Source: Candidatus Gastranaerophilales bacterium
Lineage (GTDB): Bacteria > Cyanobacteriota > Vampirovibrionia > Gastranaerophilales > Gastranaerophilaceae
DNA: 33,320 bases
Assembly: GCA_944326615.1 (NCBI GenBank)
Contig: CALVEO010000018.1
Span: 1 to 33,320 of the forward strand
Direction of reading: 5' to 3'
Position 1 is the stretch's first letter; each line of letters starts with the position of its first letter. Below the pieces are notes generated by a model. It ran no database searches and was not told the origin of the DNA. It saw nothing but the letters and a program-made list of their open reading frames with translations. Below, piece after piece: positions 8,144-32,185 of the stretch. The position numbers were made by a program, and so were the translations under genes.

Positions 8144-8908
8144 ATGAAATATTCAAAATACGGGGAACAGTATCATATCGGACTTAATAAGGGAGATATC
8201 GGCGAATATGTAATATTGCCGGGTGATCCCAAAAGATGTGAAAAAATAGCAGCATACTTTGATAATTCAAAACTTATAGCTGACAGACGTGAATTCACAA
8301 CCTATACCGGGATTTTAAACGGAGTAAAAGTAAGTGTAACCTCGACCGGTATAGGAGGCCCCTCAGCTGCTATCGCAATGGAAGAACTTGTAAATGTAGG
8401 AGCCAAAACATTTATAAGAGTTGGTACCTGCGGCGGGATTGATACGAATGTTAAAGGCGGAGATATCGTAATTGCAACCGGAGCTGTAAGGATGGAAGGT
8501 ACTTCAAGAGAATACGCACCGATTGAATTTCCTGCTGTTGCTAATCTCGATGTTGTCAATTCTCTTGTACAAGCTTCAAAAAATCTCGGTTATGAACATC
8601 ATACAGGAATTGTCCAATGCAAAGACTCCTTTTACGGACAGCACAATCCTGAAAGAATGCCTGTTAGTTACAAACTTTTAAACAAATGGGAAGCGTGGAA
8701 ACGGCTTGGATGCCTGGCCTCAGAAATGGAATCAGCCGCGCTTTTTATTGTCGGAAGCTTTTTAAAAGTCAGAGTCGGCTCTGTTTTTCTGACAGTTGCA
8801 AACCAGGAACGTGAAAAAATCGGACTTGAAAATCCTGTTGTCCATGATACAGATAAAGCCATTAAAACCGCCATAGAAGCATTAAAACTTCTTATTGGAA
8901 AAAACTAA
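8144..8908 (+). CDS. udp: uridine phosphorylase
   Basis: Nucleoside phosphorylase that splits uridine to uracil and ribose 1-phosphate. The 254-residue sequence follows Escherichia coli Udp along its length: [14 protein letters not shown] (phosphate site), [45 protein letters not shown] and SEMESAALF, where the glutamate binds the ribose hydroxyls. The match to Udp is better than to purine phosphorylase DeoD (REFTT and the FPAVA segment are Udp-like). AAGGAA provides the ribosome-binding site. It begins 56 bp after ompH and 12 bp before the FlhA-like gene, so transcription may continue through all of them. Confidence 0.92.
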
Positions 8909-8920
8909 GGAGATATTTTT

Positions 8921-10399
8921 ATGTATAACAAAAAAATGCAGTATGTAATTAAAACCTGCCCCAGCGACAACACTCAGGAGCTTCAAAACCTCTTAAACGA
9001 AATGTCTATGAATAACTGGGAATTATACAGCATGCAGGAGGTTGAAAATGAGGATGGACAAATTCTGTGCCACTGCATTTTTATGCGCGAATCAGAAAAT
9101 TCTGCAAACGAAATTAATGCCGACACTATAAATATCTCCACATTTAAAAGCCAGATGGAAAAAATGCTATCGCCAGAGCTTTCTCCTTATGAATTATGCC
9201 TTGATATTCAAAGTAAAATAAGAGATCAAAAAGCTAAAATTGCCAAAATAAAAAAAGAACTGGAAGGCGAAGCTCCTGCATCTGTCAGCAGAAAAAAACT
9301 CAATGATAAAATATCTGCCGGTTTAAAAGAACTTGATGAATTAAAACTTAAACTTGCAAAAGCTACATCTCCCGATGCAATGTATTCAAAATTAAAAGAA
9401 GAAAAATTATCAATTCACTTAAGTGAAGAAATTTTGGGTTACATAGATCCTGACAGCGAAATCCCCGAAGAAGAACTTGTCGCAGAAACAGTAAAATCAC
9501 GTCTTAAATTAACAGAAGAAACCGGTTATGTTATTCCTAAAATTGTTTTTCAGGATGATGAAAGCTTAAATCCGTATGAATTTTCAATAAGAATTCGCGG
9601 GATTGATGTTTTCAAGGCATGTGTATATCCGCAGTTTTTAATGTATTTTTCAGATGAACTGCACCTTGAAAAGAAAATTAAAAATTCCGTAACGGACACT
9701 GATAAAATTACCGGCCGGAAAATTGTATGGATAGAAAAAGAAAAAACAAAAGATTTCTGGCAAAATGGTATATCCGGTGCAGAATATATTGCACACGCTT
9801 TAGAATTCTGCGCTGTCAAATATGTTGATGAGCTTTTGGATTATGAAGAACTTGATAAATACATTAATGTAGTAAACGATACAAATGATTTTCTGGTATC
9901 AAATATAATACCTGATTTTATATCTTTATCTGACCTGCGTTTTATTTTAACAAGCCTTATCCGGGAAAGAATATCAATTAAAGATATTACATATATCTTT
10001 GAGAAAATAAACGATTTTGCACAGGAAAGCACCAAATCAGATTTAATAAAAAAAATCAGACTCTCTTTATCGAGACAGATTTGTAAAGACTACGAAAATA
10101 CAGATGGAGTTATTTCCGCCTTTGAAATTTCTGAAAAAACTCTTGAAAAATTTATGCCGAATTTCGATGAAAGTGACGACTCCATAATTCGTATAGATGC
10201 AGGATTTGCAGAAAAACTAGCTGACAAACTCCTGAAAAAATCAGCTCAGTTGAATATTCAATCTCCGAAACTCTTGGTTCCTCTGGAGTTCAGACATCTA
10301 ATTTTTACACTTTTAAGCAATTATATGAATAATATAACAGTTCTCTCAAGAGAAGAAATAGGATGTAATTCTCAAATTGAAGTTATATCAGAAATTTAA
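8921..10399 (+). CDS. soluble FlhA-cytoplasmic-domain (FHIPEP) protein with DUF4177-like N-terminus
   Basis: Three parts are visible in 492 residues. Residues 5-57 look like a DUF4177 domain (YVIKTCPSDNTQELQNLLNE, then NNWELYSMQEV ... CHCIFMR). Residues about 90-147 are a charged coiled coil. Residues about 160-492 match the cytoplasmic domain of FlhA, the export gate of flagellar and type III secretion systems, to its very end: NPYEFSIRIRGIDVFK (217-232), SLSDLRFILTSLIRERISIK (335-354) followed by DITYIFEKINDFA, LSLSRQIC (381-388), LLKKSAQLNIQSPKLLVP and VLSREEI. The membrane-embedded N-terminal half of FlhA is absent, and there is no membrane segment or signal peptide. AAGGAGAT precedes the ATG. 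In FlhA this domain forms a nonameric ring that docks chaperone-substrate complexes; what a free copy does here is unknown. The tagged glucanotransferase follows after 52 bp. Confidence 0.88.
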   Translation: MYNKKMQYVIKTCPSDNTQELQNLLNEMSMNNWELYSMQEVENEDGQILCHCIFMRESENSANEINADTINISTFKSQMEKMLSPELSPYELCLDIQSKIRDQKAKIAKIKKELEGEAPASVSRKKLNDKISAGLKELDELKLKLAKATSPDAMYSKLKEEKLSIHLSEEILGYIDPDSEIPEEELVAETVKSRLKLTEETGYVIPKIVFQDDESLNPYEFSIRIRGIDVFKACVYPQFLMYFSDELHLEKKIKNSVTDTDKITGRKIVWIEKEKTKDFWQNGISGAEYIAHALEFCAVKYVDELLDYEELDKYINVVNDTNDFLVSNIIPDFISLSDLRFILTSLIRERISIKDITYIFEKINDFAQESTKSDLIKKIRLSLSRQICKDYENTDGVISAFEISEKTLEKFMPNFDESDDSIIRIDAGFAEKLADKLLKKSAQLNIQSPKLLVPLEFRHLIFTLLSNYMNNITVLSREEIGCNSQIEVISEI

Positions 10400-13581: not shown

Positions 13582-15153
13582 ATGACTAATATAAAAGTTA
13601 CTCCAAACCAGACATTAAAAGATTTCAGCTACGGAAGAAAGTTTGTAAAAGGACTCGCCAGCCGTTCCATTGCTCCCGTAATTTTGCTTGAAGCCTGCGT
13701 CGAAATCGGAAGAACTTATCAGGCATACCAAAGAGGGGGTTACACAGAAGCCAGAGAACGTTTAACAGAAGAAATGCTCGGTGCGGCATTCTGGTTCAGC
13801 GGAGTACCTTTATTCAACAGCCTTATTGACAAATTTGTAGGGAAAAAGATTTACAAACTTCCTGAAACAAACTTTGATACAGGCAAAGATAATGTCAGAA
13901 ATCCGTTTGCAAATTATATGAAAAAATTTGCAAATGAGATGAAAATTGATCCTAAAAAAGCTGAAAAAGTAATAGCAAACTACAAATTCGGCAAAGTTAT
14001 GACAAGTATAATTCTTGCGAACTGTCTTGTCGGATTTGTTCTGCCCAAAACAAATCAGGCAATAACAAAATATCTGCTGAAAAAAGAAAAAAATAAACAG
14101 GAACAGCCAAAAACAAATAATGAACCGAAGCAGCAATATTCAATGGATAAATTTTTGAATAACGACAAAAATGTTTCATTCGGTGCAATTTCTCCACAGA
14201 CATTAATGTCTCTTGCATACAGCTTTGAAAATAACCCAAAATACGGGCTTTTATCAACTGATATGGGAGTCTGGATAGGCAGAGGCGTATGTGCAAGAAA
14301 CAGCCACGAAAGAACGGAAGTCTTATTCAGAGATACTACTTCCAGCTACTTCTATATGTTTAACATGCCTGTAATTGCATATCTTTTGAACAAAATTCAA
14401 GACGGAAAAGGTACAAGACTTGACCCTGTGGCCGCAAAACAAACTACAGATTTGATGCAGTCAGTGCTTGATGCAAACGGCGGAAAAATGAGCGTAGATA
14501 AATTCAGGACAGAAATTCTTGGCAATCCGGACAACACCGGCTACATAACAAAAGATATTGCAAAAGCCATTAGAGAAGGCAAAGGCACAATAGAAATAAA
14601 CAAATTTGCCAAACTATTACAGGACGTAAAAACAAAATATCCTGATGTTGACATTACTAAAATTGAAGCTAATGCAAGAAAAATGGCAAAATTACAGCCT
14701 TCTTTAGCAGGAAAAGAAATTATTACAGAAAGACAAATTCTGAACGTGTTTAAAGATGGTGCTGTTAACATCCCCGAATTTTTGAAAAATGTATTTACAT
14801 GTTCAACCTCAGACCAGAACCTGTTTACCGGTAAAATATCAGAGCCTGTATTTGACAAACCATTGAGCTTTATTTCAAATGAAACATTTATCAAAAAACA
14901 AAACGAAATAGAAGATTATGTTAAATCTGTAATTAAAAAGGCAAAAAATGGTAAAATTACAAAAGAACTTCTCGACAAAGCCTGCAAGACAAATTATGCT
15001 AAAAACGCGTTCAACTGGGGCTTAGGATTTGTAATTTCAGCAGCGTTCTTATCAACCTTTATCCCGAAAATCCAATACTGGATTACAAGAAAAACTACGG
15101 GCTCAAACGCCTTCCCAGGCACCGCTGATTACTCTGATGAGAAAAAAGCTTAA
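13582..15153 (+). CDS. large lineage-type membrane protein, unknown function
   Basis: A 523-residue protein with no domain that I recognise. Hydrophobic stretches occur near 30-45 (SIAPVILLEACVEIG), 68-88 (GAAFWFSGVPLFNSLI), 131-150 (KVMTSIILANCLVGFVLP) and near the C-terminus (WGLGFVISAAFLSTFIPKI). Between them lies a large polar region of about 300 residues that is probably soluble. An internal NVSFGAISPQ at about residue 197 resembles the F-G/Q tags on other proteins here. The pattern of a polar body between membrane segments and its position opposite another orphan membrane protein suggest a lineage-specific envelope pair. A GGGAAA element lies about 8 nt before the ATG. Function cannot be assigned. 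Confidence 0.8.
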   Translation: MTNIKVTPNQTLKDFSYGRKFVKGLASRSIAPVILLEACVEIGRTYQAYQRGGYTEARERLTEEMLGAAFWFSGVPLFNSLIDKFVGKKIYKLPETNFDTGKDNVRNPFANYMKKFANEMKIDPKKAEKVIANYKFGKVMTSIILANCLVGFVLPKTNQAITKYLLKKEKNKQEQPKTNNEPKQQYSMDKFLNNDKNVSFGAISPQTLMSLAYSFENNPKYGLLSTDMGVWIGRGVCARNSHERTEVLFRDTTSSYFYMFNMPVIAYLLNKIQDGKGTRLDPVAAKQTTDLMQSVLDANGGKMSVDKFRTEILGNPDNTGYITKDIAKAIREGKGTIEINKFAKLLQDVKTKYPDVDITKIEANARKMAKLQPSLAGKEIITERQILNVFKDGAVNIPEFLKNVFTCSTSDQNLFTGKISEPVFDKPLSFISNETFIKKQNEIEDYVKSVIKKAKNGKITKELLDKACKTNYAKNAFNWGLGFVISAAFLSTFIPKIQYWITRKTTGSNAFPGTADYSDEKKA

Positions 15154-19320: not shown

Positions 19321-19959
19321 ATGAGAATTTCAGCAATACAGAGTTATCAAACAAATACTTATTTTTCAGGAGAAAAGAAAAATAAACTCAAAAATACGGC
19401 AGGTGCAGCGGCTATTGCTCTTGTCACTGCAGTACCTGCAACAAATGCAGATGCACAGTATTACTACACACCACCCATAACTCTTCCGCCGCCTGCAACC
19501 TTACACACACCCGGCTCAGTACCGGATTGTTTTATCATCGGTGATATGAAAACTTTTAACGGCGGGAAATCCTTAAAACAGGTATTTAATGAAATTGATT
19601 CAAACCAAAACGGAACAATTTCAGCAAACGAGGTTGTAAGAACAGACAGAAACAATAAAACAAGATATAATGTATATCCTTATAATGTCTATACACAGTA
19701 CCAGAGCCAATATACAAGAAATCAATTCCAAGACTTATCCGAAACCTATAACGAAGATGACTCAAACCCGAATACTATAAACTACAATGAATACAAAGCA
19801 ATAATGGAAGACTTTTTGGATTCCAGAAATGTAACAAACTTTATGGACTTATTCAGCACTCCTGGACTGTATCCGCTGCCACCGCTTTATAATCCTTTCA
19901 GACCTGATCCTCCGCATCATCACCACAGGCACAGAGACCACGATCATCATAGAAGGTAG
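19321..19959 (+). CDS. tagged EF-hand protein with His-rich tail
   Basis: A 212-residue protein. It opens with the tag MRISAIQSYQTNTYFSGEKK, followed by a lysine-rich stretch and a hydrophobic segment (AGAAAIALVTAVPATNADA) that looks like a signal sequence placed about 25 residues in, with likely cleavage before QYYY. A canonical EF-hand loop runs from Asp93 to Glu104 (DSNQNGTISANE). A second, degenerate one runs from Asp146 to Glu157, with Pro at position 5. The tail is proline-rich and then histidine-rich (PPHHHHRHRDHDHHRR), a likely Zn/Ni/Cu-binding segment. AGGGGT is a poor-to-fair ribosome-binding site. It is probably exported and metal-binding; role unknown. It converges on the XRE gene with 3 bp between stop codons. 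Confidence 0.78.
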   Translation: MRISAIQSYQTNTYFSGEKKNKLKNTAGAAAIALVTAVPATNADAQYYYTPPITLPPPATLHTPGSVPDCFIIGDMKTFNGGKSLKQVFNEIDSNQNGTISANEVVRTDRNNKTRYNVYPYNVYTQYQSQYTRNQFQDLSETYNEDDSNPNTINYNEYKAIMEDFLDSRNVTNFMDLFSTPGLYPLPPLYNPFRPDPPHHHHRHRDHDHHRR

Positions 19960-20352: not shown

Positions 20353-20381
20353 TTGACTTTATGCAATATATAGCATATAAT
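20353..20381 (+). promoter_or_regulatory. sigma70-type promoter of the pilin-like gene
   Basis: TTGACT (20353-20358), 17 nt, TATAAT (20376-20381): a near-consensus promoter. Start is expected near 20388, with GGAGGT at 20399-20404 as ribosome-binding site for the ATG at 20409. Confidence 0.8.
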
Positions 20382-20396
20382 AATAATATATATGCT
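20372..20396. promoter_or_regulatory. candidate operator overlapping the -10 box
   Basis: AGCATATA (20372-20379) and TATATGCT (20389-20396) form an 8-bp inverted repeat with a 9-nt centre. It covers the -10 box and start point of the pilin-like gene. A further half-site, TATGC, lies at 20360-20364. The adjacent XRE regulator is the obvious candidate to bind it. Confidence 0.5.
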
Positions 20397-20408
20397 GTGG
20401 AGGTCATA

Positions 20409-21149
20409 ATGAAAAATAAAAATTTTTATTCAAAAACTTGGAACATTACAACAAAAAAATCAGGTTTTACACTGGCAGAGGTATTAATTACTCTTGGAAT
20501 AATAGGTGTTGTTGCAGCGATGACAATGCCTGTTCTTGTCTCTAATTACCGTAAAAATGTTGTTGAGACCAGGTTAAAAAAGTTTTATTCTTCTATGAAT
20601 CAGGCAATAAAAATGGCCGAAGCAGAATACGGAGATAAAGAAGGCTGGCAGCCTAAAGACACAGATGATTTCTGGAACAACTATCTTTCAAAGCATTTAA
20701 ATTATATAAATGTGGAAGAAAATTCAAGCGGTTCAAGAAAACAAAAAATTGTTTATTTTGCAGACGGAAGTGCAGTAAAAATTGACATTTACTTTTCCGA
20801 AAATGATGATGGAGAAGTAACAATGTCAACACAGGGCGGTCATTTTCTATTCTGTCCTGAGGCTAAATATTGTAAAGAACCATATTATGCAGAAAACGGT
20901 GAAAAAGATAAAGGTAAAAGAATTTTTACATTTGGTTTCTGGCCTAATGAAACAAACAGTAATTTTAAATATCATAAGAATAAAGGGGTTGAACCATACA
21001 TGGTCTGGTGGAATGGAGATGAAAAAGTTCTTTATACTAGCAGTACCTATGGGTGTAATACATCAGAAGCATCTAAAAAAATGTATTGTGCTGCAATAAT
21101 ACAGCATAACGGCTGGAAAATTCCGAAAGATTACCCGTTCAGATTTTAA
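20409..21149 (+). CDS. type IV pilin-like / pseudopilin protein
   Basis: The N-terminus carries a prepilin-peptidase site: a basic leader (MKNKNFYSKTWNITTKKSG) followed by FTLAEVLITLGIIGVVAAMT, with cleavage after Gly and Glu at mature position 5. The hydrophobic helix continues to the polar head of about 200 residues, rich in aromatic residues and with paired cysteines (FCPEAKYC and YGCNTS ... MYC) that could form disulfides. Length 246 residues. The ATG at 20409 has GGAGGT just upstream; an earlier in-frame ATG at 20361 lies in the promoter and is rejected. No pilus-assembly genes are nearby, so it is an orphan minor-pilin type. Confidence 0.9.
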   Translation: MKNKNFYSKTWNITTKKSGFTLAEVLITLGIIGVVAAMTMPVLVSNYRKNVVETRLKKFYSSMNQAIKMAEAEYGDKEGWQPKDTDDFWNNYLSKHLNYINVEENSSGSRKQKIVYFADGSAVKIDIYFSENDDGEVTMSTQGGHFLFCPEAKYCKEPYYAENGEKDKGKRIFTFGFWPNETNSNFKYHKNKGVEPYMVWWNGDEKVLYTSSTYGCNTSEASKKMYCAAIIQHNGWKIPKDYPFRF

Positions 21150-22794: not shown

Positions 22795-22822
22795 TTAATA
22801 ATTATTTTTTTTTTAAAGTCAA
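22795..22822 (-). promoter_or_regulatory. promoter giving a leaderless zinc-ribbon mRNA
   Basis: On the minus strand TTGACT (22822-22817), 16 nt, TATTAA (22800-22795), 6 nt, ATG at 22788. It overlaps the end of the glycosyltransferase gene at 22802. Confidence 0.5.
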
Positions 22823-23803
22823 ATAAAAAAAACGATTAAATATAAATTTTATCATATTATCACAATATTTTGAGCTGTATAAAAGTTTTTTATTTTTATA
22901 ATTTCCATTATACAATTGCCGCCACTTTCTGCAAAGAGTTTTGTATAAACAATGTTTGTCAAAAATTTTTAATTCACTGTTATTTTTCTCAATCTCATTA
23001 AACAATTGCTTTAATTGTTCTGTCAATATTAAAATATCCGCATCATCCAATGTTGTAAAATAAGAACCTGATTGATTAAAAACATTTTTTAAATTATCAG
23101 GAATTTCAATATTCAATACTTTTAAATTTCTCTGTACAAGCTCAACTGTAGAACGCTGAATTAAATCATACTTATTATTTGAAATATTATTACCATCCCA
23201 TCTGTAATAAAAAAGCACCTGCGGAATTATATGTATATCAAAACATAAACTTGCTCTTGACCATAAATCATGATCTTCTATAGGGCAACTTTCATCGTAA
23301 CGAAGATTATATTTGTCAAATAATGACTTCCGAAACATTGAACCGCCATGAGCGATATCGCAGAAAAAAATTAAATTCGATTTTAGCCTTTTATCATTAC
23401 TTGTTCCTTTATAAATTTTGTCTAAATCACCAAAAAATTTATACCAGCAGCTTACAATCCCTGTATTTTTATGTAAATCTAAATATTTTACCTGTTTTTC
23501 CAATCTATCAGGAGCAGATACATCATCTCCGTCCATTCTTGCAATATATTCACCTCTGGCTTGCGCTAATCCGATATTCAAAGACGCGGCAAAACCCTTT
23601 TTAACATTATTCTGAATAATCCGAATTCTGGAATCATTGTAAGATTTCAGGATATCGACACTGCCGTCATCATATCCAAATTCATTCACTATCAAAAATT
23701 CAAAATTCTGAAATGTCTGGTTAAGAATTGAATCCACAGCTTCTTTTAAATAACTTTTATCTTTGTATATTGTCATTAACACTGTTACTTTTGGATTAGA
23801 CAT
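22802..23803 (-). CDS. family 2 glycosyltransferase
   Basis: A GT-A fold glycosyltransferase of 333 residues that adds a sugar in surface-glycan assembly. The N-terminal nucleotide-sugar site is VTVLMTIYKDKSYLKEAVDS, followed by the metal-binding DxD in RMDGDDVSAPDR and the acceptor-side IEDHDLWSRAS. No membrane segments are evident. AAGGAG precedes the ATG. Its start overlaps the acetyltransferase gene by 8 bp, so translation is likely coupled. Donor and acceptor cannot be read from the sequence. Confidence 0.92.
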   Translation of the reverse strand: MSNPKVTVLMTIYKDKSYLKEAVDSILNQTFQNFEFLIVNEFGYDDGSVDILKSYNDSRIRIIQNNVKKGFAASLNIGLAQARGEYIARMDGDDVSAPDRLEKQVKYLDLHKNTGIVSCWYKFFGDLDKIYKGTSNDKRLKSNLIFFCDIAHGGSMFRKSLFDKYNLRYDESCPIEDHDLWSRASLCFDIHIIPQVLFYYRWDGNNISNNKYDLIQRSTVELVQRNLKVLNIEIPDNLKNVFNQSGSYFTTLDDADILILTEQLKQLFNEIEKNNSELKIFDKHCLYKTLCRKWRQLYNGNYKNKKLLYSSKYCDNMIKFIFNRFFYLTLKKK

Positions 23804-24275
23804 TATTCTCCTTACAATCTATCTTTTTATCAGAAAAATTTTTTATCAATTTTGCAGGAACTCCACCCCACATTGTATTATCAGGTATATCACAAGTTAC
23901 AACAGCATTTGCAGCAATAACCGAATTATTTCCAATTACAATGTTGCCGACCACAACAGCACCTGCATATATTGTAACATTGTCTCCGATTTTTGGAATA
24001 TTGTCCGCGTAACTGTCAAGATGTTTTCTCGTATCCAGACCTATAGTAACATTTTGATAAACAACACAATTTTTACCAAATCTTACCCCATGCCCTATTA
24101 CAATGCCATAAGGATGGTCAAATTTTACATTATTCTTAATTTTAGAATATTCCGGGATAAAACAATTGAATTTTATACAGAGAAAATTTTTACATTTTTC
24201 AATATAATATTTAAAAAATCTTTTTTTTATTATCCATACAAAATGTTCTATTTCATACAATATAGGGATTTTCAT
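23796..24275 (-). CDS. hexapeptide-repeat acyltransferase, serine acetyltransferase-like
   Basis: A left-handed beta-helix acyltransferase of 159 residues, probably O-acetylating a surface sugar. The hexapeptide region begins about residue 45 with VKFDHPYGIVIGHGVRFGKN, containing the His-Pro-x-Gly element of serine acetyltransferases, and continues through VTIYAGAVVVGNIVIGNNSV and VPAKLI. It lacks most of the N-terminal helical domain of CysE, and its place among glycosyltransferase genes makes a polysaccharide role likelier than cysteine synthesis. It overlaps the following gene by 8 bp. Confidence 0.85.
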   Translation of the reverse strand: MKIPILYEIEHFVWIIKKRFFKYYIEKCKNFLCIKFNCFIPEYSKIKNNVKFDHPYGIVIGHGVRFGKNCVVYQNVTIGLDTRKHLDSYADNIPKIGDNVTIYAGAVVVGNIVIGNNSVIAANAVVTCDIPDNTMWGGVPAKLIKNFSDKKIDCKENNV

Positions 24276-24297
24276 AATTTTACACCGCCTGATTTTA

Positions 24298-26253
24298 TTA
24301 TTTCATCGCATCGTACAATTCTTTCATAGCTGCATCACCGGTATAATAAGCATTAGCAAAAGATAAGGCATTCTGTGAATAGATTTTATTTAACTGCCGA
24401 TTATTTATAAGTTCCACAACATCATCTGCAAACTCCTCAGGATTATCAGAAATAAAACCACAAAATTTATCAATGCCGCTAACACCCTGCGCACCAACTG
24501 ATGTTGTTACAACAGCAGTAGAATGTACAAGTGCTTCAACAAGTTTTATCTTTAATCCTGAACCAGCCAATAACGGAATAACTGAACAAAAAGCAGATTT
24601 GTAAATTTCTTTCAAGTCAGGAACAAAACCTTTGAAATAAACATTTTTGTATTCTTTTTCTTTAAAATAATTGCAAACACCACCGCAAACCAACAATTTT
24701 GCATCAGGAACTTTCTGCAAAACCAACGGAAAAATATTATTAATGAAATATTCAACACCCTGACAGTTAACAAGTGATGCGCCGCTAACACAAACTATAT
24801 TCTTTTCTTCGGGGTTCAAAACTTTTTCAGAATAACTCAATTGTCTGTAATAAATCACAGGTAAATTAACAACAATCTTATCAGGACACAAAGATTTTAT
24901 TTTTGCTTTCTCATCTTCTTGAATTGCAGCAACAATATCAGCCTTATTCCAAAATTTTACTTCATTATCTTTAGTCCAATATTCAATATCAGATGTATCA
25001 AGATTTTGATTTTTGAACATCTCCAGACGGTTATGCCAGATATCGTTTGTTAACACAACTTTATAAGGTATTTGCGAAGTCTCAGGTAAATCAAAAACAT
25101 TACATAAATTTGTCATATTTACAAAAACAGCATAATATTTATTTTTACTTAAAATAGTTTTTATCCAGTTAAGTTTTTGAACAGGTAACGGCATATTAGA
25201 GATAATTTTTGGAATATTAAAATCCAAATTTAAAAATGTATTGCTGCCTAAAATGCGAACAGCTTTATAAATATAATCAGGACTATTTTTTGCAGTAAAA
25301 CGATTTAACAGTTTTCTTGGCTGCCTTAGTGCTATATAATCGACACTATATTTTTTCTTTAATTCTGAAATAACAGAATTTAAATATTTATATGCCCCAT
25401 TGTTTAAATTTTTGCGGATTGCTAGTTCTGATATAAATAAAATTCTTTTTCTTGTATTCAAAATTTTAGATAAAATTATATATTTTTTCGGAGACAGTTT
25501 TAATTTAAACAGTATTTTTTCACAAGCAGGCAAATCAAGATCGTTACAGTTTTTATTCAATACTTTTTGCTTATACAATCTGTAATCACCAAATTTTAAA
25601 ATATTACTCACACTCTTTTTAGGACACCATGATGCATTAAAATGATGAACAGCGTAAGTATTGTCGCCTTCATATAAACAGAAATAATTGTAAGGGAATA
25701 AAACACAGTTCTTTTCAAGAACCACTTTTTCAGACCCGTTATATGGCGGCAAAAGATTATATTTCGATTTAAAATAATTTCTTACACGTACAGAATTAGT
25801 TGTCAAATCCATTTCGCCGTCAGGTTTTATAAACGGAATATCATTATATTCATCAAGCAAATCTTTAATAATTTTATTATGCTTTTGAGCACCGACAACA
25901 GCAGTAAACGGTTCCACAATACCATGCCAGTTATCAAATCCGGAAAAGAATTCCAAATCAAGAAAATCATCAAACGATTTGAAAACCTCATTATCAGAAT
26001 CAAGATATATACCGCCATAATTATACAAAGCATATAATCTGAAATAATCTGATATAAAAGCCCATTTTTTAGCTTCATAGGCTTCTTTGACATATCTGTT
26101 TTCACAACTTTTTAAATCATTATCATTCCATTCCCTGATTTCATAATCGGGAAGGTATTTTTTCCAGCTTTCAATACATTTAAGCACCAATTCAGGTTTT
26201 GGATTATTGCCAAACCAGCAATAGTGAATAATTTTTGGAATTCCGGCAAACAT
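24298..26253 (-). CDS. two-domain glycosyltransferase (GT32-like plus GT4-like)
   Basis: A 651-residue fusion. Residues 1 to about 230 are a DXD sugar-transferase of the GT32/capsular type: IPKIIHYCWFG, then FRLYALYNYGGIYLDSDNEV with the DSD at 85-87. Residues about 265-651 are GT-B: a Rossmann start (KKRILFISELAIRKN-like), a central LVVCV-type strand and the C-terminal motif FVPDLKEIYKSAFCSVIPL followed by GSGLKIKLVEALVHSTAVVT, the GT4 nucleotide-sugar site with its conserved glutamate. Two bonds are therefore made by one chain. GGAGAG lies before the ATG. Linkages and sugars are unknown. Confidence 0.88.
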   Translation of the reverse strand: MFAGIPKIIHYCWFGNNPKPELVLKCIESWKKYLPDYEIREWNDNDLKSCENRYVKEAYEAKKWAFISDYFRLYALYNYGGIYLDSDNEVFKSFDDFLDLEFFSGFDNWHGIVEPFTAVVGAQKHNKIIKDLLDEYNDIPFIKPDGEMDLTTNSVRVRNYFKSKYNLLPPYNGSEKVVLEKNCVLFPYNYFCLYEGDNTYAVHHFNASWCPKKSVSNILKFGDYRLYKQKVLNKNCNDLDLPACEKILFKLKLSPKKYIILSKILNTRKRILFISELAIRKNLNNGAYKYLNSVISELKKKYSVDYIALRQPRKLLNRFTAKNSPDYIYKAVRILGSNTFLNLDFNIPKIISNMPLPVQKLNWIKTILSKNKYYAVFVNMTNLCNVFDLPETSQIPYKVVLTNDIWHNRLEMFKNQNLDTSDIEYWTKDNEVKFWNKADIVAAIQEDEKAKIKSLCPDKIVVNLPVIYYRQLSYSEKVLNPEEKNIVCVSGASLVNCQGVEYFINNIFPLVLQKVPDAKLLVCGGVCNYFKEKEYKNVYFKGFVPDLKEIYKSAFCSVIPLLAGSGLKIKLVEALVHSTAVVTTSVGAQGVSGIDKFCGFISDNPEEFADDVVELINNRQLNKIYSQNALSFANAYYTGDAAMKELYDAMK

Positions 26254-26276
26254 TTTATACTCTCCACTATATAATC

Positions 26277-27272
26277 TTATCTTTTGTCTCCAAGTATACC
26301 GTAAAAACGATAAAATCTATATAGTAAAAATTGACTTAAAAAATATATTTTAAAACGTAAAGATTTAGAAAAATTTAAAAAGTTTTTCTCATAATATCTA
26401 CGAGTCTTAATATCAAGATTAATTGCAGAAACAATTTCATCTACCTGCTTTGCTGTTTTAAATCTATTTTTTCTTGGCAATTCACAAAAAGCACAATCAA
26501 CCGCATGTATTCTAAACAATTTATTTAAAATATCATTATATATTTGCAGCTTCTCTTTATCTTTTACATTTAATTTCACAAAATCAAACATGCTCTTCAT
26601 ACAATAGTAAACAGATATTCGCTTTTCAGGATTACATATTGCATTGGTGCCATGTTGAATATATTTGTAAAAAGGTTTATTTATAAAAGAAATTTTATCC
26701 GAACAGCAAACTAGATATTTAAAAGCAAATTCCAAATCCTCTGCGATTTGAAAACCTGTTAAAAATGATAAATTAAATTTATTAATGATAGATTTTTTAA
26801 AAATCTTATTCCATACACATGCAATAAGCATCCCTTCATTTAACAAATCAAATTTATCATCTATTCCGTCTAAATTTCTAATAAAAGATTTTTCTTCTAA
26901 TTCGTCAATTACCTCAATCCCGCATATTGCCATATCTGACTGTTCTTTTTCTATTGAAGAAATCATTTCAATATAAATATTTTCGTCCACATAATCATCC
27001 TGGTCGCAAAAAGTTACATAATCACCGTTAGCAGCATTAATTCCGTTATTTCGTGCAGCACTTACACCGCAATTCTCTTGTTCTATCAATACAACACGAT
27101 TATCAGCTAAGGCAAATTTTCTTATTATTTCAGCGGATTCATCACTACTACCGTCATTGATACACAAAATTTCTATATTTGTATATTTTTGATTAATAAG
27201 AGATGCCAAACATCTTTCTAAAAATTTTTCGCCATTATATACAGGTATAATTACAGATAATTTGTTATCCAT
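26277..27272 (-). CDS. family 2 glycosyltransferase
   Basis: A GT-A glycosyltransferase of 331 residues. The start KLSVIIPVYNGEKFLERCLA is the family's nucleotide-binding strand, followed by INDGSSDESAE, the CGVSAARNNGI segment and DxD as FCDQDDYVDE. The C-terminal half is basic and may meet the membrane or acceptor. AAGGAA provides the ribosome-binding site. It follows gmhA after 15 bp inside the operon. One candidate role is transferring the heptose made by the neighbouring genes, but nothing in the sequence proves it. Confidence 0.92.
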   Translation of the reverse strand: MDNKLSVIIPVYNGEKFLERCLASLINQKYTNIEILCINDGSSDESAEIIRKFALADNRVVLIEQENCGVSAARNNGINAANGDYVTFCDQDDYVDENIYIEMISSIEKEQSDMAICGIEVIDELEEKSFIRNLDGIDDKFDLLNEGMLIACVWNKIFKKSIINKFNLSFLTGFQIAEDLEFAFKYLVCCSDKISFINKPFYKYIQHGTNAICNPEKRISVYYCMKSMFDFVKLNVKDKEKLQIYNDILNKLFRIHAVDCAFCELPRKNRFKTAKQVDEIVSAINLDIKTRRYYEKNFLNFSKSLRFKIYFLSQFLLYRFYRFYGILGDKR

Positions 27273-27287
27273 TTATAATTCCTTAAT

Positions 27288-27863
27288 TCACCTATACAAT
27301 CGTTTATTTATATGTTCACAAATAATACTAACTATCATATGATCAAGCACCATATGCAAATCCTCAGTTATCTGCATATCATCAATATTCATGTTAACGG
27401 AATATTTAGCGGTTTGTTTCAGTCTGCCTCCGTTATAACCTGTCAAACCAACTGTTATACCGTCATTTAAATTTGCATATTCAACAGCTTTCAAAACATT
27501 TTTCGAATTACCGCTTCCTGATATACCTATAACTATATCACCGGGCTTATACAAATTCTTTAACTGTTCAACAAAAATATCATCATAACTTATATCATTT
27601 GCATAGGCCAGCATAGTCGGAATATTATCATTTAAACAAATAAACTTAAAGCGTTTTTCAAAACCATGACTTGCGCCTTTGTTAAAATCACAGCAAAAAT
27701 GACTTGCAGTTGATGCAGACCCGCCATTTCCCATTATAAAAATATTCTTTTCATTCTCTCTTGCCTCTAGTAATATTTCTATAAATCTTATAATTTCCTG
27801 CCTATCCAGCCTGTCTATAGTTGTTTTTAATGTTTCAAAATAATTATTGATAAACTCTTTCAT
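27288..27863 (-). CDS. gmhA: sedoheptulose 7-phosphate isomerase
   Basis: First step of heptose activation: D-sedoheptulose 7-phosphate to D-glycero-D-manno-heptose 7-phosphate. A 191-residue SIS-domain protein with GmhA signatures: FIMGNGGSASTASHFCCDFN, where the Gly-Gly-Ser loop binds phosphate and His55 follows, then ISGSGNSKNVLKA and TEDLHMVLDHMI near the end. Length matches the family. It sits 3 bp after hddA within the operon, and the following genes complete the pathway. Confidence 0.94.
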   Translation of the reverse strand: MKEFINNYFETLKTTIDRLDRQEIIRFIEILLEARENEKNIFIMGNGGSASTASHFCCDFNKGASHGFEKRFKFICLNDNIPTMLAYANDISYDDIFVEQLKNLYKPGDIVIGISGSGNSKNVLKAVEYANLNDGITVGLTGYNGGRLKQTAKYSVNMNIDDMQITEDLHMVLDHMIVSIICEHINKRLYR

Positions 27864-27866
27864 TTA

Positions 27867-28865
27867 TTAACTCCTGTACAATTTTACTTTATTATAGTGA
27901 ATAATATTTGTACCTTTGTTATCAAATTTAAAATCAATTTCTTTTAAATCAGCTAATGCTCTGCGGACTTTATTATGATATTGTTCTTCCACATAGAAAA
28001 GCAAAAATCCACCGCCGCCTGCTCCAAGAAGCTTTCCGCCAAGCGCTCCGTTTTGACGAGCCAAATCATAATAATAATCAATTTGAGAATTAGAAATTCC
28101 TGATGCAAGCTCCTTTTTATACATCCAGCCGGTATGGAGCACCTCTCCCATTGCACTTGTATTGCCTTTTAAAAGTTCTTCCTTCAAATCTCTTGATAAT
28201 TGTACCATTTTATGTAAATTATTAATTTTAGCATCATCATATGTTGTATTTTTCTTTTGTTCTGCCAAAATTTGGCCGGCAGAACGTGTCTGGCCGGTAT
28301 AAAACATCAACAGATTTTTCTCTAAAACACTGTATGCATCAGACATTAAGTATAATTTTTCAACATCAACAAGTCCGTTTTTTCTAAATTCTATAAAATT
28401 AAGTCCGCCGCAAGCACAGGCATATTGATCCTGCTTTCCTATTGGCTCTTTCAAATCTTCTATTTCAATTTTGCAAGCTAATGCTGCTATATCTTCTTTA
28501 TTCATATACTGATCGGTATAAGCATTGCATAAATTAATTAAACCTACAGTGAAAGCTGAAGAAGAAGCAAGCCCTGTTCCTGCTGGGATATCAGCACTGG
28601 AATTAAAATCAACACCCTTGATTGAGTATCTTTTAAAAACCTCTCTTATGATAGGATGATTAATATCTTCAACACTGGAAGGATTTTCAGTCTTTGAATA
28701 TTTTAAAAGATATTTATCCTCATTAAAATATGGGTGAATAGACAAATACATATATTTATTAATAGAAGCACTAACAACTGAACCGCCAAATCTTTCATAG
28801 TAATTTGATAAATCACTTCCGCCTCCGGCGAAACTAATTCTAAAAGGTGTTCTGGTTATTATCAT
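27867..28865 (-). CDS. hddA: D-glycero-alpha-D-manno-heptose 7-phosphate kinase
   Basis: A GHMP kinase that phosphorylates heptose 7-phosphate at C1 in the alpha configuration, giving the 1,7-bisphosphate. Motifs in the 332 residues: RTPFRISFAGGGSDLSNYYE at the N-terminus, PAGTGLASSSAFTVG (ATP-binding loop) and LLGAGGGGFLLFY near the C-terminus. The first stretch is typical of HddA rather than of other GHMP kinases. It overlaps hddC-gmhB by 4 bp (ATGA) and precedes gmhA by 3 bp, so the four activities are translationally linked. Confidence 0.93.
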   Translation of the reverse strand: MIITRTPFRISFAGGGSDLSNYYERFGGSVVSASINKYMYLSIHPYFNEDKYLLKYSKTENPSSVEDINHPIIREVFKRYSIKGVDFNSSADIPAGTGLASSSAFTVGLINLCNAYTDQYMNKEDIAALACKIEIEDLKEPIGKQDQYACACGGLNFIEFRKNGLVDVEKLYLMSDAYSVLEKNLLMFYTGQTRSAGQILAEQKKNTTYDDAKINNLHKMVQLSRDLKEELLKGNTSAMGEVLHTGWMYKKELASGISNSQIDYYYDLARQNGALGGKLLGAGGGGFLLFYVEEQYHNKVRRALADLKEIDFKFDNKGTNIIHYNKVKLYRS

Positions 28866-30130
28866 TTTAATTCTCCAATAATTAATTCAACGGCGTCTTT
28901 AAGGTTAGCTGCTATATAATCAGCCCCGTCTATTTTACCTATCGAAACAGTTTTACATCCTGCATTTTTCCCTGCCTCAATATCTCTTTTACTGTCTCCT
29001 ATCATCCAGGAATTTTTCAAATCAATATTTAAGTCATTAGCAGCTTTAAACAGCATACCAGCCTTAGGTTTTCTGCATTCGCAATCGATTTTTAGCTCAG
29101 GGACTTCTCCCTCAAAACCTTTTTCGGGATGATGAGGACAATAATAAATTTTATTTAAATATGCGCCCTGTTCACCTAACAATGTCTCCATTTTTTTATG
29201 CATATTTTCAATATCAGCAATTGTAATAAAACCTTTAGCCGCCATTGGCTGATTTGTAACAACAACTGCTAAATAATCACTATTGTTTATAATCTTGACT
29301 GCTTCTGCAGTTTCCGGCAGTAATTTAAAATCTTTAACTGACGGTTTTGTTCCCATATCCGGGTTAATAACTCCATCCCGATCTAAAAATATACATGGAC
29401 GTTTGTTTTTCTTATTTAATCTTGCAACCTTTCCGGATATAAAATCCTGTTCTACTTTTTCAAATCTCTCAGCAGTACCCATATCTTTAATATACTCAGG
29501 CGTTGAGTATGCTGCCAGAATTTCTCCGTTATCAATAAGTTTTTTCAAAATATCTTTCCCAAAATCCTGAAAAACACCATTTTCTATATAATCAAAAATT
29601 TTCGGAGAAAATATATACACAGCAGCATTCACAAGGTTTTGATAATATTTACCCTCATCATGAGGTTTTGGCAAAACAGAAGTTACAATATTTTCAGAAT
29701 TAATCTCCAATAGATCACTATCATACGGATGATCATTTGGGTGTACTATAGCAGTGCCTATTGAATTATGAGATTTATCAAAATCAATAAAACTTTTAAT
29801 ATCAAAATCCATAACAACATCGCCGTAGAAAACAAGGAACCTTTCTGTAATTTTCTCCCGGATTAGCTTTAAGCACCCTGCAGTTCCAAGCGGATAAGGT
29901 TCAACAACATGGTGAATTTTTACACCCCATTTTTCACCATTGCCGAAATAATCCTCAATAACATTCGCCAAGTGTCCCGATAATATAAAAATTTCATTAA
30001 TGCCATACCGTTTAGCAAACAGAATTTGATGCTCCAATAAAGGCTTCCCGGCAATTTTTACCATTGGTTTAGGAATATCCTTTAGCCCTAGTCTTGTGCC
30101 TTTTCCACCTGCGATTATTACAAGCTGCAT
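28862..30130 (-). CDS. fused heptose 1-phosphate guanylyltransferase and heptose bisphosphate phosphatase
   Basis: Two activities in one 422-residue chain. Residues 1 to about 230 are a nucleotidyltransferase (HddC type): GGKGTRL at 8-14, IPKPMVKI, and GDVV at 103-106; it would make GDP-D-glycero-alpha-D-manno-heptose. Residues about 243-422 are an HAD phosphatase of the GmhB type: FLDRDGVINPD with nucleophile Asp250 and Asp252, VVTNQ, the zinc cluster Cys331/His333 with Cys350/Cys352 (CPHH and CEC), RKPKAGM, and GDSKRDIEAG. GmhB removes the C7 phosphate just before nucleotide transfer, so the fusion joins consecutive steps. It overlaps genes on both sides. Confidence 0.93.
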   Translation of the reverse strand: MQLVIIAGGKGTRLGLKDIPKPMVKIAGKPLLEHQILFAKRYGINEIFILSGHLANVIEDYFGNGEKWGVKIHHVVEPYPLGTAGCLKLIREKITERFLVFYGDVVMDFDIKSFIDFDKSHNSIGTAIVHPNDHPYDSDLLEINSENIVTSVLPKPHDEGKYYQNLVNAAVYIFSPKIFDYIENGVFQDFGKDILKKLIDNGEILAAYSTPEYIKDMGTAERFEKVEQDFISGKVARLNKKNKRPCIFLDRDGVINPDMGTKPSVKDFKLLPETAEAVKIINNSDYLAVVVTNQPMAAKGFITIADIENMHKKMETLLGEQGAYLNKIYYCPHHPEKGFEGEVPELKIDCECRKPKAGMLFKAANDLNIDLKNSWMIGDSKRDIEAGKNAGCKTVSIGKIDGADYIAANLKDAVELIIGELK

Positions 30131-31071
30131 AAATCCCTCTCTAATATATATCTTATTGATTTTCTCACCGCTTCATTTGATGAAACTTTAGCTTTCCATC
30201 CAAGTCTGTGAATTTTATCCAAACAGTAACTGAATCTCGGAACATCGCCTACCCAGCCCCTTTCTCCTCCGGTGTATTTTATCTTGGCATTTAATCCCAT
30301 TTCTTCTATTACCATTTGCGCAATTTCTTTAACTTTAGTTCTGCTTTCAACCCCGAGATTAAAATAATTTATTTTATCGTTTGTTGATTTCCAAACCAGC
30401 AAAATTGCTTCCACAAGGTCTTTTACATACAAATAAGGCTTGACCTGCTCGCCATTTCCAAGAACTTCAAGTTCTGCGGGATTTTTTCTTAATTTATTAA
30501 TGAAATCATAAATTGCCCCATGTGTAGCTCTTTCGCCTACAACATTAGGAAATCGTGTAATCCATGCTTTAAAACCGTAATTTTCACAAAAACTTGAAAT
30601 ATATGCCTCCGATGCTAACTTTGAAGCTCCATAATGTGAAATAGGGAAAAGCGGCCCAAAATCCTCATTAACTGCAATTTCCGCCTCTCCATATATTGCA
30701 GAAGTAGATGCAAAAACTATCTCTGTTATATTGTATTCCTTCATTGCCAACAGCACATTATAAGTCGTAGATAGTGTATTATTAAAATCTACATCAGGAT
30801 CTTTATGACTTTTGGCAATATCTGAATTTGCTGCCATATGAAAAACAACATCAAAATTATTTTCTTCGAAAACCTTAAAAAAATCCTGCCTATCCATAAT
30901 ATCTCCTTTGATAAAAGAGAAATTCTGATTTTTCATTGCTTCATCCAAATTTGATAATCTGCCTAAAGATAAATTATCATATACAACAACTCTGTTTCCT
31001 TCTGCTAATAATGCATCAGCGAGATGGCTGCCAATAAAACCTGCTCCGCCTGTTATTAATATATTTTTCAT
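30118..31071 (-). CDS. extended SDR NAD-dependent epimerase/dehydratase
   Basis: A nucleotide-sugar or sugar-modifying short-chain dehydrogenase of the extended type, 317 residues. Rossmann motif TGGAGFIGSH (7-16), and catalytic Tyr147-x3-Lys151 (HYGASK), with the serine in ASTSAIYGEA. NLGVESRTKVKEIAQMV and the C-terminal GWKAKVSSNEAV are typical of UDP-glucose 4-epimerase-like enzymes. The exact substrate is not determined; in this operon it could modify a nucleotide sugar for the glycan. The ATG at 31071 is chosen because it overlaps the upstream stop as ATGA and follows GGAAGG; 14 extra upstream codons are rejected. Confidence 0.9.
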   Translation of the reverse strand: MKNILITGGAGFIGSHLADALLAEGNRVVVYDNLSLGRLSNLDEAMKNQNFSFIKGDIMDRQDFFKVFEENNFDVVFHMAANSDIAKSHKDPDVDFNNTLSTTYNVLLAMKEYNITEIVFASTSAIYGEAEIAVNEDFGPLFPISHYGASKLASEAYISSFCENYGFKAWITRFPNVVGERATHGAIYDFINKLRKNPAELEVLGNGEQVKPYLYVKDLVEAILLVWKSTNDKINYFNLGVESRTKVKEIAQMVIEEMGLNAKIKYTGGERGWVGDVPRFSYCLDKIHRLGWKAKVSSNEAVRKSIRYILERDLCSL

Positions 31072-32051
31072 TTTCCTTCCCCACAAAGATTTAAAAACTT
31101 TTTCAAAAAACAATTTTCCATTAATTTTTTATATCTTCTTTTCGTTTTTCTATCTAATAAATCAATATTAATGTCAATAGAGTTTAAAAAGTATCTTGAT
31201 TTTTTATCATAATCTTCCATAAATATTTTAGAAATTTTCTTTCTCCAAACATAAATTTGATTCACATAATAAGATTTTATAAATTGAAAAATTCCTTCAT
31301 TTAAATTCTGTTTATTTTGAATACAATGAAAGAATTCTACAACACTTTCATACCCTGCAATTATATCATTAAGTTTGCTTTTAATATTCTGTTTATCATG
31401 TTTTAACGAATTATCTCTAATTCTATAATAATAAACAGCATCCTTTGCAAAAGTAATTCTGTCTGCCATAAACAAAGCTTTCAAATTAAAAGAAACATCT
31501 TCCTCAGTTTTTGTATTGACAAATAAAATATTGTTTGTACTCAATAATGAATGTCTGTATAATTTATTCCAAACAACTACAGACCCAGACAACACTTTCT
31601 TATCACGGAAATCTGTAGTAACCTCTTTATTAATTTTAAATGCCTGCTTTTGAATATAATTCTGTTTAATTATGTCATTACCACAAAGATAAAAAGAATT
31701 TGAAAATACTACATCAGCATTAAATTGTTCTGCTCTATCGTATAATATTTGCAAAAAATCATTTTCTATTATGTCATCTGCATCAACAAAAGAAATATAT
31801 TTACCCGCAGCATATTTAAGTCCTATGTTTCTTGCAAGCGCAAGAGATTTATTATTTTGAGAATTTTTGATTAATCGAATACGGCTATCTCTTTCAACGT
31901 ATTCTTCACAAATTTTATTACAATTATCAGGGCCGTCAGAAACTATAATTATTTCTATATCAGACAAAGTCTGGCCGACAAGACTATCCAAACATTCCCT
32001 CAGATACTCTTCTACATTAAAAACCGGCACTATAACGGAAACTTTAATCAT
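31068..32051 (-). CDS. family 2 glycosyltransferase, first gene of the operon
   Basis: A GT-A glycosyltransferase of 327 residues: KVSVIVPVFNVEEYLRECLD at the start, IIIVSDGPDN, SLALARNIGLKYAAGKYISF and the DxD in VDADDIIEND, all typical of GT2 family enzymes. The C-terminal region is basic and hydrophobic in short runs, without a clear membrane helix. AAGGAT is the ribosome-binding site; ATG at 32051 or the preceding GTG at 32054 are both possible. It opens the long minus-strand gene series and ends overlapping the SDR gene by 4 bp. Confidence 0.92.
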   Translation of the reverse strand: MIKVSVIVPVFNVEEYLRECLDSLVGQTLSDIEIIIVSDGPDNCNKICEEYVERDSRIRLIKNSQNNKSLALARNIGLKYAAGKYISFVDADDIIENDFLQILYDRAEQFNADVVFSNSFYLCGNDIIKQNYIQKQAFKINKEVTTDFRDKKVLSGSVVVWNKLYRHSLLSTNNILFVNTKTEEDVSFNLKALFMADRITFAKDAVYYYRIRDNSLKHDKQNIKSKLNDIIAGYESVVEFFHCIQNKQNLNEGIFQFIKSYYVNQIYVWRKKISKIFMEDYDKKSRYFLNSIDINIDLLDRKTKRRYKKLMENCFLKKFLNLCGEGK

Positions 32052-32185
32052 CACAAAATATCCTTAAATATTATATATTATCATCAATATAACATAAATA
32101 TATAAAATGTTAAAATGTTAAGCTAAATATTAGCCATAAGTTTACAGTTCTTATAAGATTATAATACACAAATTAAACAAAAGAA

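Follow-up and report, generated by a model that had tools for sequence, protein, structure and literature searches.

We found that one bacterial order, Candidatus Gastranaerophilales (gut bacteria and non-photosynthetic cousins of cyanobacteria), keeps a membrane-free FlhA cytoplasmic unit with an altered docking site besides a complete type III export gate. The unit, here named FlhA-S, is encoded in the window under study (33,320 nucleotides, contig CALVEO010000018.1 of assembly GCA_944326615.1). Our favoured reading, to which we give a probability of a little under one half (about 0.48), is that FlhA-S, a predicted soluble paralogue of the full-length FlhA2 of the same bacteria, would join, cap or stack on the FlhA2 ring or form its own ring beneath it, as a regulator or adaptor and not as a docking site for chaperoned cargo. 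To our knowledge, FlhA/SctV has been treated as a membrane protein, and its cytoplasmic ring has been held meaningful only under the gate. The surprise for type III export specialists is high.

The open reading frame at 8921-10399 on the forward strand starts with ATG and encodes 492 amino acids. Eight bases before the start codon stands an AAGGAG, which overlaps the stop codon of a nucleoside phosphorylase-like gene; this neighbour adjoins FlhA-S only within part of the family. The possibility had been raised that an FlhA membrane half lies in frame upstream of 8921. Since the phosphorylase gene there is intact, no membrane half has been lost at that place, and the short architecture is common to orthologues in many species. 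No other type III gene was recognised among the other window ORFs scanned, as had been noted before. The features of the locus are as follows.

8144-8908, forward strand: intact gene for a nucleoside phosphorylase-like protein, 12 bp ahead of the FlhA-S start (Pfam PNP_UDP_1, E 2e-43; gene orders)
8907-8912, forward strand: AAGGAG, Shine-Dalgarno-like (direct sequence reading)
8921-10399, forward strand: flhA-S gene, stand-alone soluble FlhA cytoplasmic-domain paralogue of 492 aa (ORF, Pfam, sequence match to solved structures, fold match)
8933-9091, forward strand: DUF4177-like beta-alpha-beta-beta domain, residues 5-57 (PF13783 matches in the family, secondary structure of two models, conservation)
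9176-9367, forward strand: two-helix hairpin, residues 86-149 (AlphaFold2 models)
9368-9460, forward strand: FlhA2-type linker, residues 150-180, SPxxMYxxI (alignment with FlhA2 and FlhA1)
9461-9835, forward strand: D1 with inserted D2 (about 240-284), residues 181-305 (alignment to Salmonella FlhA-C, fold match)
9701-9712, forward strand: docking site part 1, residues 261-264; D261, equivalent to Salmonella D456, kept; T264, at the place of F459, lost (alignment)
9794-9799, forward strand: docking site part 2, residues 292-293; H292, at the place of T490, and A293, at the place of H491, both lost (alignment)
9836-10072, forward strand: D3, residues 306-384, the best kept FlhA domain (alignment)
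10073-10396, forward strand: D4, residues 385-492, the most diverged domain (alignment)

The Pfam FHIPEP profile matched residues 144-481 over its positions 321-653 of 657 (E 1.1e-47), and its N-terminal half (with the membrane region, about profile 1-310) had no match in FlhA-S. The NCBIfam models for FlhA (153 bits) and SctV (96 bits) likewise matched the C-terminal part only, far under their full-length cut-offs. When compared by sequence with solved FlhA/SctV cytoplasmic domains, FlhA-S matched 3mix best (E 2e-20). The AlphaFold2 model (mean pLDDT 82, mostly around 90 in the FlhA part) was matched to the cytoplasmic domain of Vibrio FlhA (7amy_A, Z 29.5 over 339 residues, rmsd 3.0 A), and a Foldseek search gave 6ch2_C (E 4e-22). 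By Pfam, Foldseek and VIA (Z up to 29.5) the D1-D4 cytoplasmic fold of FlhA/SctV is present, and residues ~127-492 correspond to linker plus D1-D4. No membrane-like stretch was found in FlhA-S, in which the highest 19-residue Kyte-Doolittle mean was 1.43; the full FlhA of the same genome reached 3.02, with 78 windows over 1.6. These results bear out the original prediction of an FlhA cytoplasmic core lacking the membrane channel, as well as its expected match to FlhA/InvA-type structures, FlhA and SctV domains both being matched by the model. Its placing of the start of the FlhA part at about residue 160 was slightly late, as linker homology extends from near residue 127. That the cytoplasmic unit is uncoupled from a membrane gate is thus supported. 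FlhA-S is a paralogue of the FlhA cytoplasmic domain and not an FlhA, because two defining features of an FlhA, membrane gate and docking site, were tested for and are missing.

For the front end of the protein a DUF4177-like domain had been proposed, a claim that stands in weakened form: of 32 family members, 18 matched PF13783 at E up to 0.5 (best E 3.2e-4) and the model has a beta-alpha-beta-beta order, but the window protein itself gave no passing match to this Pfam family. Both AlphaFold2 models place the elements at E6-14, H18-30, E34-42 and E48-57. No confident match to a solved structure was obtained for the N-terminal domain (best Foldseek E 0.01), nor did a fold search with this domain plus hairpin alone return anything at E under 0.001; dodecin- and ACT-like fold matches at about 0.05 are a lead only. 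The adjoining coiled coil of the original prediction is indeed a helical region, modelled as two long helices (89-115 and 122-149, mostly pLDDT 80-90) that form a hairpin. Fold matches to the hairpin reach Z 9.9, which is what such a common arrangement would be expected to give. In six genomes searched, the N-terminal domain did not turn up a second time outside FlhA-S.

Among Vampirovibrionia genomes at least 90% complete, FlhA-S was detected in 183 of the 184 Ca. Gastranaerophilales genomes with a match, a row count over matching order genomes that leaves 7 non-matching genomes out. The sole exception (G034) carries FlhA2. An earlier survey had found FlhA-S in 86 of 90 order genomes, the exceptions being G034, G035, G062 (63% complete) and G089 (83%). 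Matches in other orders of the class scored like the full-length FlhA of those orders, and none was an FlhA-S. As to how widely this architecture occurs in Vampirovibrionia, it is near-universal in Gastranaerophilales and was detected in no other order searched. A profile-guided scan with one genome per species yielded at least 548 relatives, and in the 80 best of them nearly all of the 492-aa architecture is covered; named organisms among the matches listed were mostly Gastranaerophilales/Melainabacteria. Within the host genus, dN/dS of FlhA-S was 0.03-0.11, indicating purifying selection (a second L049 entry, an unrelated ORF, was left out of this set). A phage or mobile origin was also considered and was rejected, no relative of FlhA-S having been found in viral contigs within the sensitivity of that scan.

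The genome from which the window comes also encodes a full-length FlhA of 706 aa (FHIPEP profile 2-656 of 657), here termed FlhA2. Apart from FlhA-S it is the genome's sole FHIPEP match, and hence there is no free membrane half. The flhA2 gene clusters with genes for FliE, FliF, a 334-aa protein and FliH; another contig carries the order SpoA-FliO-FliP-FliQ-109 aa-FliR, and FlhB and FliI are encoded on other contigs. The further components for which a genome search had been proposed (FlhB, FliP/Q/R, FliI) were thus located, and the core of this system, termed T3SS-2, is complete in the host genome (FlhA, FlhB, FliP, FliQ, FliR, the ATPase with FliH, and the MS-ring protein). Its parts lie at the following loci.

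L003 9835-15905: non-flagellar T3SS core, own genome
L091 11093-15057: same core
L139 10464-11540: same core
L140 7684-9030: same core

Flagellin (PF00669) gave no match in the host genome or genus and was detected in just 37 of 90 surveyed order genomes. Full-length FlhA proteins of the order fall into two score classes, FlhA1 at about 850-890 bits and FlhA2 at about 670-740 bits. FlhA1 is restricted to flagellin-bearing genomes; FlhA2 occurs in almost all genomes of the order. The same split into two classes is seen for FliP, and FlhB and the ATPase each occur twice in those flagellated genomes that were tested and once in the others. The FlhA2 cluster of most genomes examined consists of two FlgF/G-like genes, flgB, flgC, a gene of ~205 aa, fliE, fliF, a gene of ~319 aa, fliH, flhA2 and fliI; in the host genus the FlgF/G-like, flgB and flgC genes stand apart from the rest. 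As judged from gene content, T3SS-2 is a second type III system, of non-flagellar kind, and nearly all genomes of the order carry it whether they are flagellated or not. It is also present in other orders, there without FlhA-S. No injectisome genes were recognised.

Several smaller features of T3SS-2 were recorded. The protein of 319-334 aa between fliF and fliH (L003 12674-13678, reverse strand; L158 8492-10025) occupies the position expected for FliG and had no meaningful Pfam match; in one genome (G080) it is preceded by a 187-aa paralogue. FliQ, with 162 aa, has a long extension at its C-terminus (L091 13454-14275), and the 109-aa protein between fliQ and fliR weakly resembles PF13629, the N-terminal region of pilus/secretin proteins. 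This small protein was the one feature seen that bears on an outer-membrane secretin of the injectisome kind.

Trees of the cytoplasmic domain placed all FlhA-S sequences in one clade (support 100), which groups with FlhA2 of the order and of two sister families, away from FlhA1. The stem branch of this clade is long (1.45 changes per column), and a duplication of FlhA2 within the order was not rejected (p-AU 0.51). The linker motif SPxxMYxxI matches NPNrMYERLG of FlhA2, not FlhA1. Origin from the flagellar FlhA1 was ruled out by tree and linker. In FlhA2 the linker stretch sits directly behind the last membrane helix, and the change would therefore have replaced the membrane region and little else. 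Based on these comparisons, FlhA-S is best described as a fast-evolving soluble paralogue of FlhA2, its nearest relative by score and tree (about 30% identity). FlhA2, in contrast, has retained the membrane region as well as the docking site, and its rate of evolution is several times lower.

In Salmonella FlhA, the dimple at which chaperones dock is made up of D456, F459 and T490, and the linker contacts D1 and D3 of the adjacent subunit and so stabilises the ring (PMC8166844). The D456 position is retained in 95% of FlhA-S (n=43 aligned sequences). That of F459 is Thr in 62% and Ser in 23%, that of T490 is Arg in 48% and never Thr, and at H491 only 14% have His (n=43 in each case); FlhA1 and FlhA2 of these bacteria have Phe/Tyr459, Thr490 and His491 in 95-100%. 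Of the positions fixed identically in FlhA1 and FlhA2, FlhA-S retains 9/13 in D3 and 5/21 in D4. Mean pairwise identity within the FlhA-S family is highest in D3 and in the DUF4177-like domain (49% each) and lowest in D4 (28%), and the family has conserved positions of its own in D1-D3. The alignments indicate that FlhA-S lost the docking residues F459, T490 and H491 and kept the linker and the D1/D3 scaffold while D4 drifted, the loss of docking residues being set in a generally fast-evolving protein. The docking platform for chaperone-substrate complexes that had been proposed is disfavoured, because Phe/Tyr459, Thr490 and His491, near-invariant in both other FlhA types, are lost in the FlhA-S family.

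A different soluble FlhA2 derivative, of 296 aa, was found in one genome (G147; L254:10145-11035). With domain limits read from the alignment, it combines a helical N-terminal part with an FlhA2-type linker, D1 and D3, and is without D2 and D4; it gives an independent hint that linker, D1 and D3 are retained in a soluble form. In six genomes (G043, G044, G049, G055, G056 and G061) there are more FHIPEP matches than FlhA1, FlhA2 and FlhA-S explain, up to nine in G056, and further soluble FlhA fragments may be common in genomes of the order.

FlhA-S shares the D1-D4 fold, the linker and the C-terminal end with FlhA-C of the flagellar gate, but has a DUF4177-like domain and a hairpin in place of the membrane region, together with the lost F459, T490 and H491 and the diverged D4. 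The cytoplasmic domains of SctV (InvA, MxiA, YscV, CdsV, EscV) have the same fold (Z 22-28); FlhA-S differs from SctV in being without the membrane region and is nearer in sequence to flagellar-type FlhA (NCBIfam scores above). Chlamydial FlhA (Cpn0363) resembles FlhA-S in being an additional FlhA paralogue that coexists with another T3SS gate, in a host without a full flagellar gene set. It is nevertheless the reverse of FlhA-S, as it retains the membrane helices, seven in number, with a short C-terminal part (PMC2830194). No naturally occurring soluble paralogue of FlhA was described in the papers that we searched.

Two flhA genes were listed among 13 flagellum-related genes common to the first Melainabacteria genomes in Di Rienzi 2013 (PMC3787301), one of them alone on another contig than the fliF-fliH-flhA-fliI cluster. 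This lone flhA is probably FlhA-S; that paper treats it as an ordinary flhA, and a missing membrane half goes unmentioned in the passages found. Partial sets in non-motile Gastranaerophilales have been read as an incomplete or decaying flagellum (PMC4040986; PMC3787301). The present data suggest that these partial flagellar sets are not simply decay but make up a second T3SS that has FlhA, FliP and rod-type genes of its own. T3SS-2 is found alongside the flagellum in flagellated members of these common gut bacteria and is kept in the others.

The favoured location of FlhA-S at the FlhA2 ring is suggested by the linker, D1 and D3, since these are the parts by which FlhA-C neighbours hold each other in the nonamer; conservation of D1/D3 in FlhA-S is compatible with a nonameric ring. 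FlhA-S would join, cap or stack on the FlhA2 ring or build its own ring below, would itself take no chaperoned substrates, and could set the occupancy of the ring or the class of substrate. A link to some other component would be made by the DUF4177-like domain and the hairpin, and through the former FlhA-S might tether something. The 'repurposed adaptor' of the original prediction lies close to this explanation. FlhA-S is probably a part of T3SS-2 rather than of the flagellum, because it is retained where flagellin is gone; both FlhA-S and T3SS-2 are near-universal in the order, which gives their co-occurrence little power to tie them together. Counting against the favoured reading are the lack of an operon link to T3SS-2, the fliJ-fliK-flgD-flgE neighbourhood in one genus, two genomes in which FlhA-S but no full-length FlhA was found, and the occurrence of FlhA2 without FlhA-S in G034 and of T3SS-2 without it in other orders. 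The bolder form of this reading, in which a chaperone-blind soluble subunit caps or mixes into the FlhA ring of T3SS-2, giving an order-wide, regulated two-component ring instead of a homo-nonamer, is doubtful at present; if true, such a ring would mean a new principle of control in type III export. If FlhA-S does bind the FlhA ring, nature would have provided an experiment in which the building of the ring is uncoupled from the docking of cargo, a question so far approached mainly through engineered mutants.

No neighbours of FlhA-S are conserved across the order; they vary from family to family, most of them being housekeeping genes, and a function could not be read from an operon. Gene orders revealed no operon link with T3SS-2. 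The scattered context (bamA-ompH, rplT and metabolic genes nearby, with PNP, BamA and OmpH as neighbours in part of one family only) would suit a protein repurposed outside secretion, for example in a housekeeping or regulatory task, and having no contact with the type III system. The long stem branch and an N-terminal domain conserved as well as D3 point the same way, as do two well assembled genomes (G147 and G211) in which FlhA-S is present and full-length FlhA was not found, a pattern that could come from such a role or, at such completeness, from assembly gaps. We nevertheless regard a role outside secretion as unlikely: within the range of our searches FlhA-S occurs only in an order with near-universal T3SS-2, it retains an FlhA2-type linker and D3, and it adjoins fliJ-fliK-flgD-flgE in one genus.

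It is likewise unlikely that FlhA-S builds a homo-oligomeric ring of its own that serves as docking or sorting platform for other cargo, unchaperoned or with unknown chaperones, and feeds T3SS-2. The complete D1-D4 fold, the retained D456, the family's own conserved positions in D1-D3 and a hairpin that could help oligomerisation are all consistent with such a platform, but the known docking dimple is lost, D4 is poorly conserved and no cargo or chaperone candidate is linked genetically.

A role in the classical flagellum, for example with FliJ at hook assembly, FlhA-S being merely inherited in non-flagellated members, is improbable. Its basis is the gene order in one genus, in which FlhA-S directly precedes fliJ-fliK-flgD-flgE, a set that may be flagellar, about 15 kb from fliH2-flhA2-fliI2.

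L102 13328-19019: FlhA-S with fliJ-fliK-flgD-flgE (G080)
L082 9888-14107: the same arrangement (G075)

Against it, this neighbourhood occurs in that genus only, FlhA-S is nearest to FlhA2 and not to the flagellar FlhA1, and in the host genus, which is without flagellin and for which a flagellar role is largely refuted, the gene is intact and shows purifying selection. A split gate, in which FlhA-S completes a separate membrane half encoded elsewhere, had been offered in the original prediction and is very improbable, being excluded by the full-length FlhA, with both halves, and the remaining core in the host genome. A frameshift, mis-assembly or pseudogene is practically ruled out by the open frame without stops, by a start, length and architecture that recur unchanged from species to species in many cases, and by the low dN/dS.

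Other genes of the window were also noted. A 523-aa ORF at 13582-15153, with no convincing Pfam match, lies near FlhA-S in related genomes too. The region 22802-32054 on the reverse strand encodes glycosyltransferases, a GHMP sugar kinase, a nucleotidyltransferase with HAD phosphatase and an epimerase, and looks like a surface-polysaccharide (heptose-type) cluster. A type IV pilin-like protein of the DUF6613 family with an N-methylation motif is encoded at 20361-21149 and has relatives in many Gastranaerophilales loci, and a 212-aa protein with EF-hand-like calcium-binding repeats is encoded at 19321-19959.
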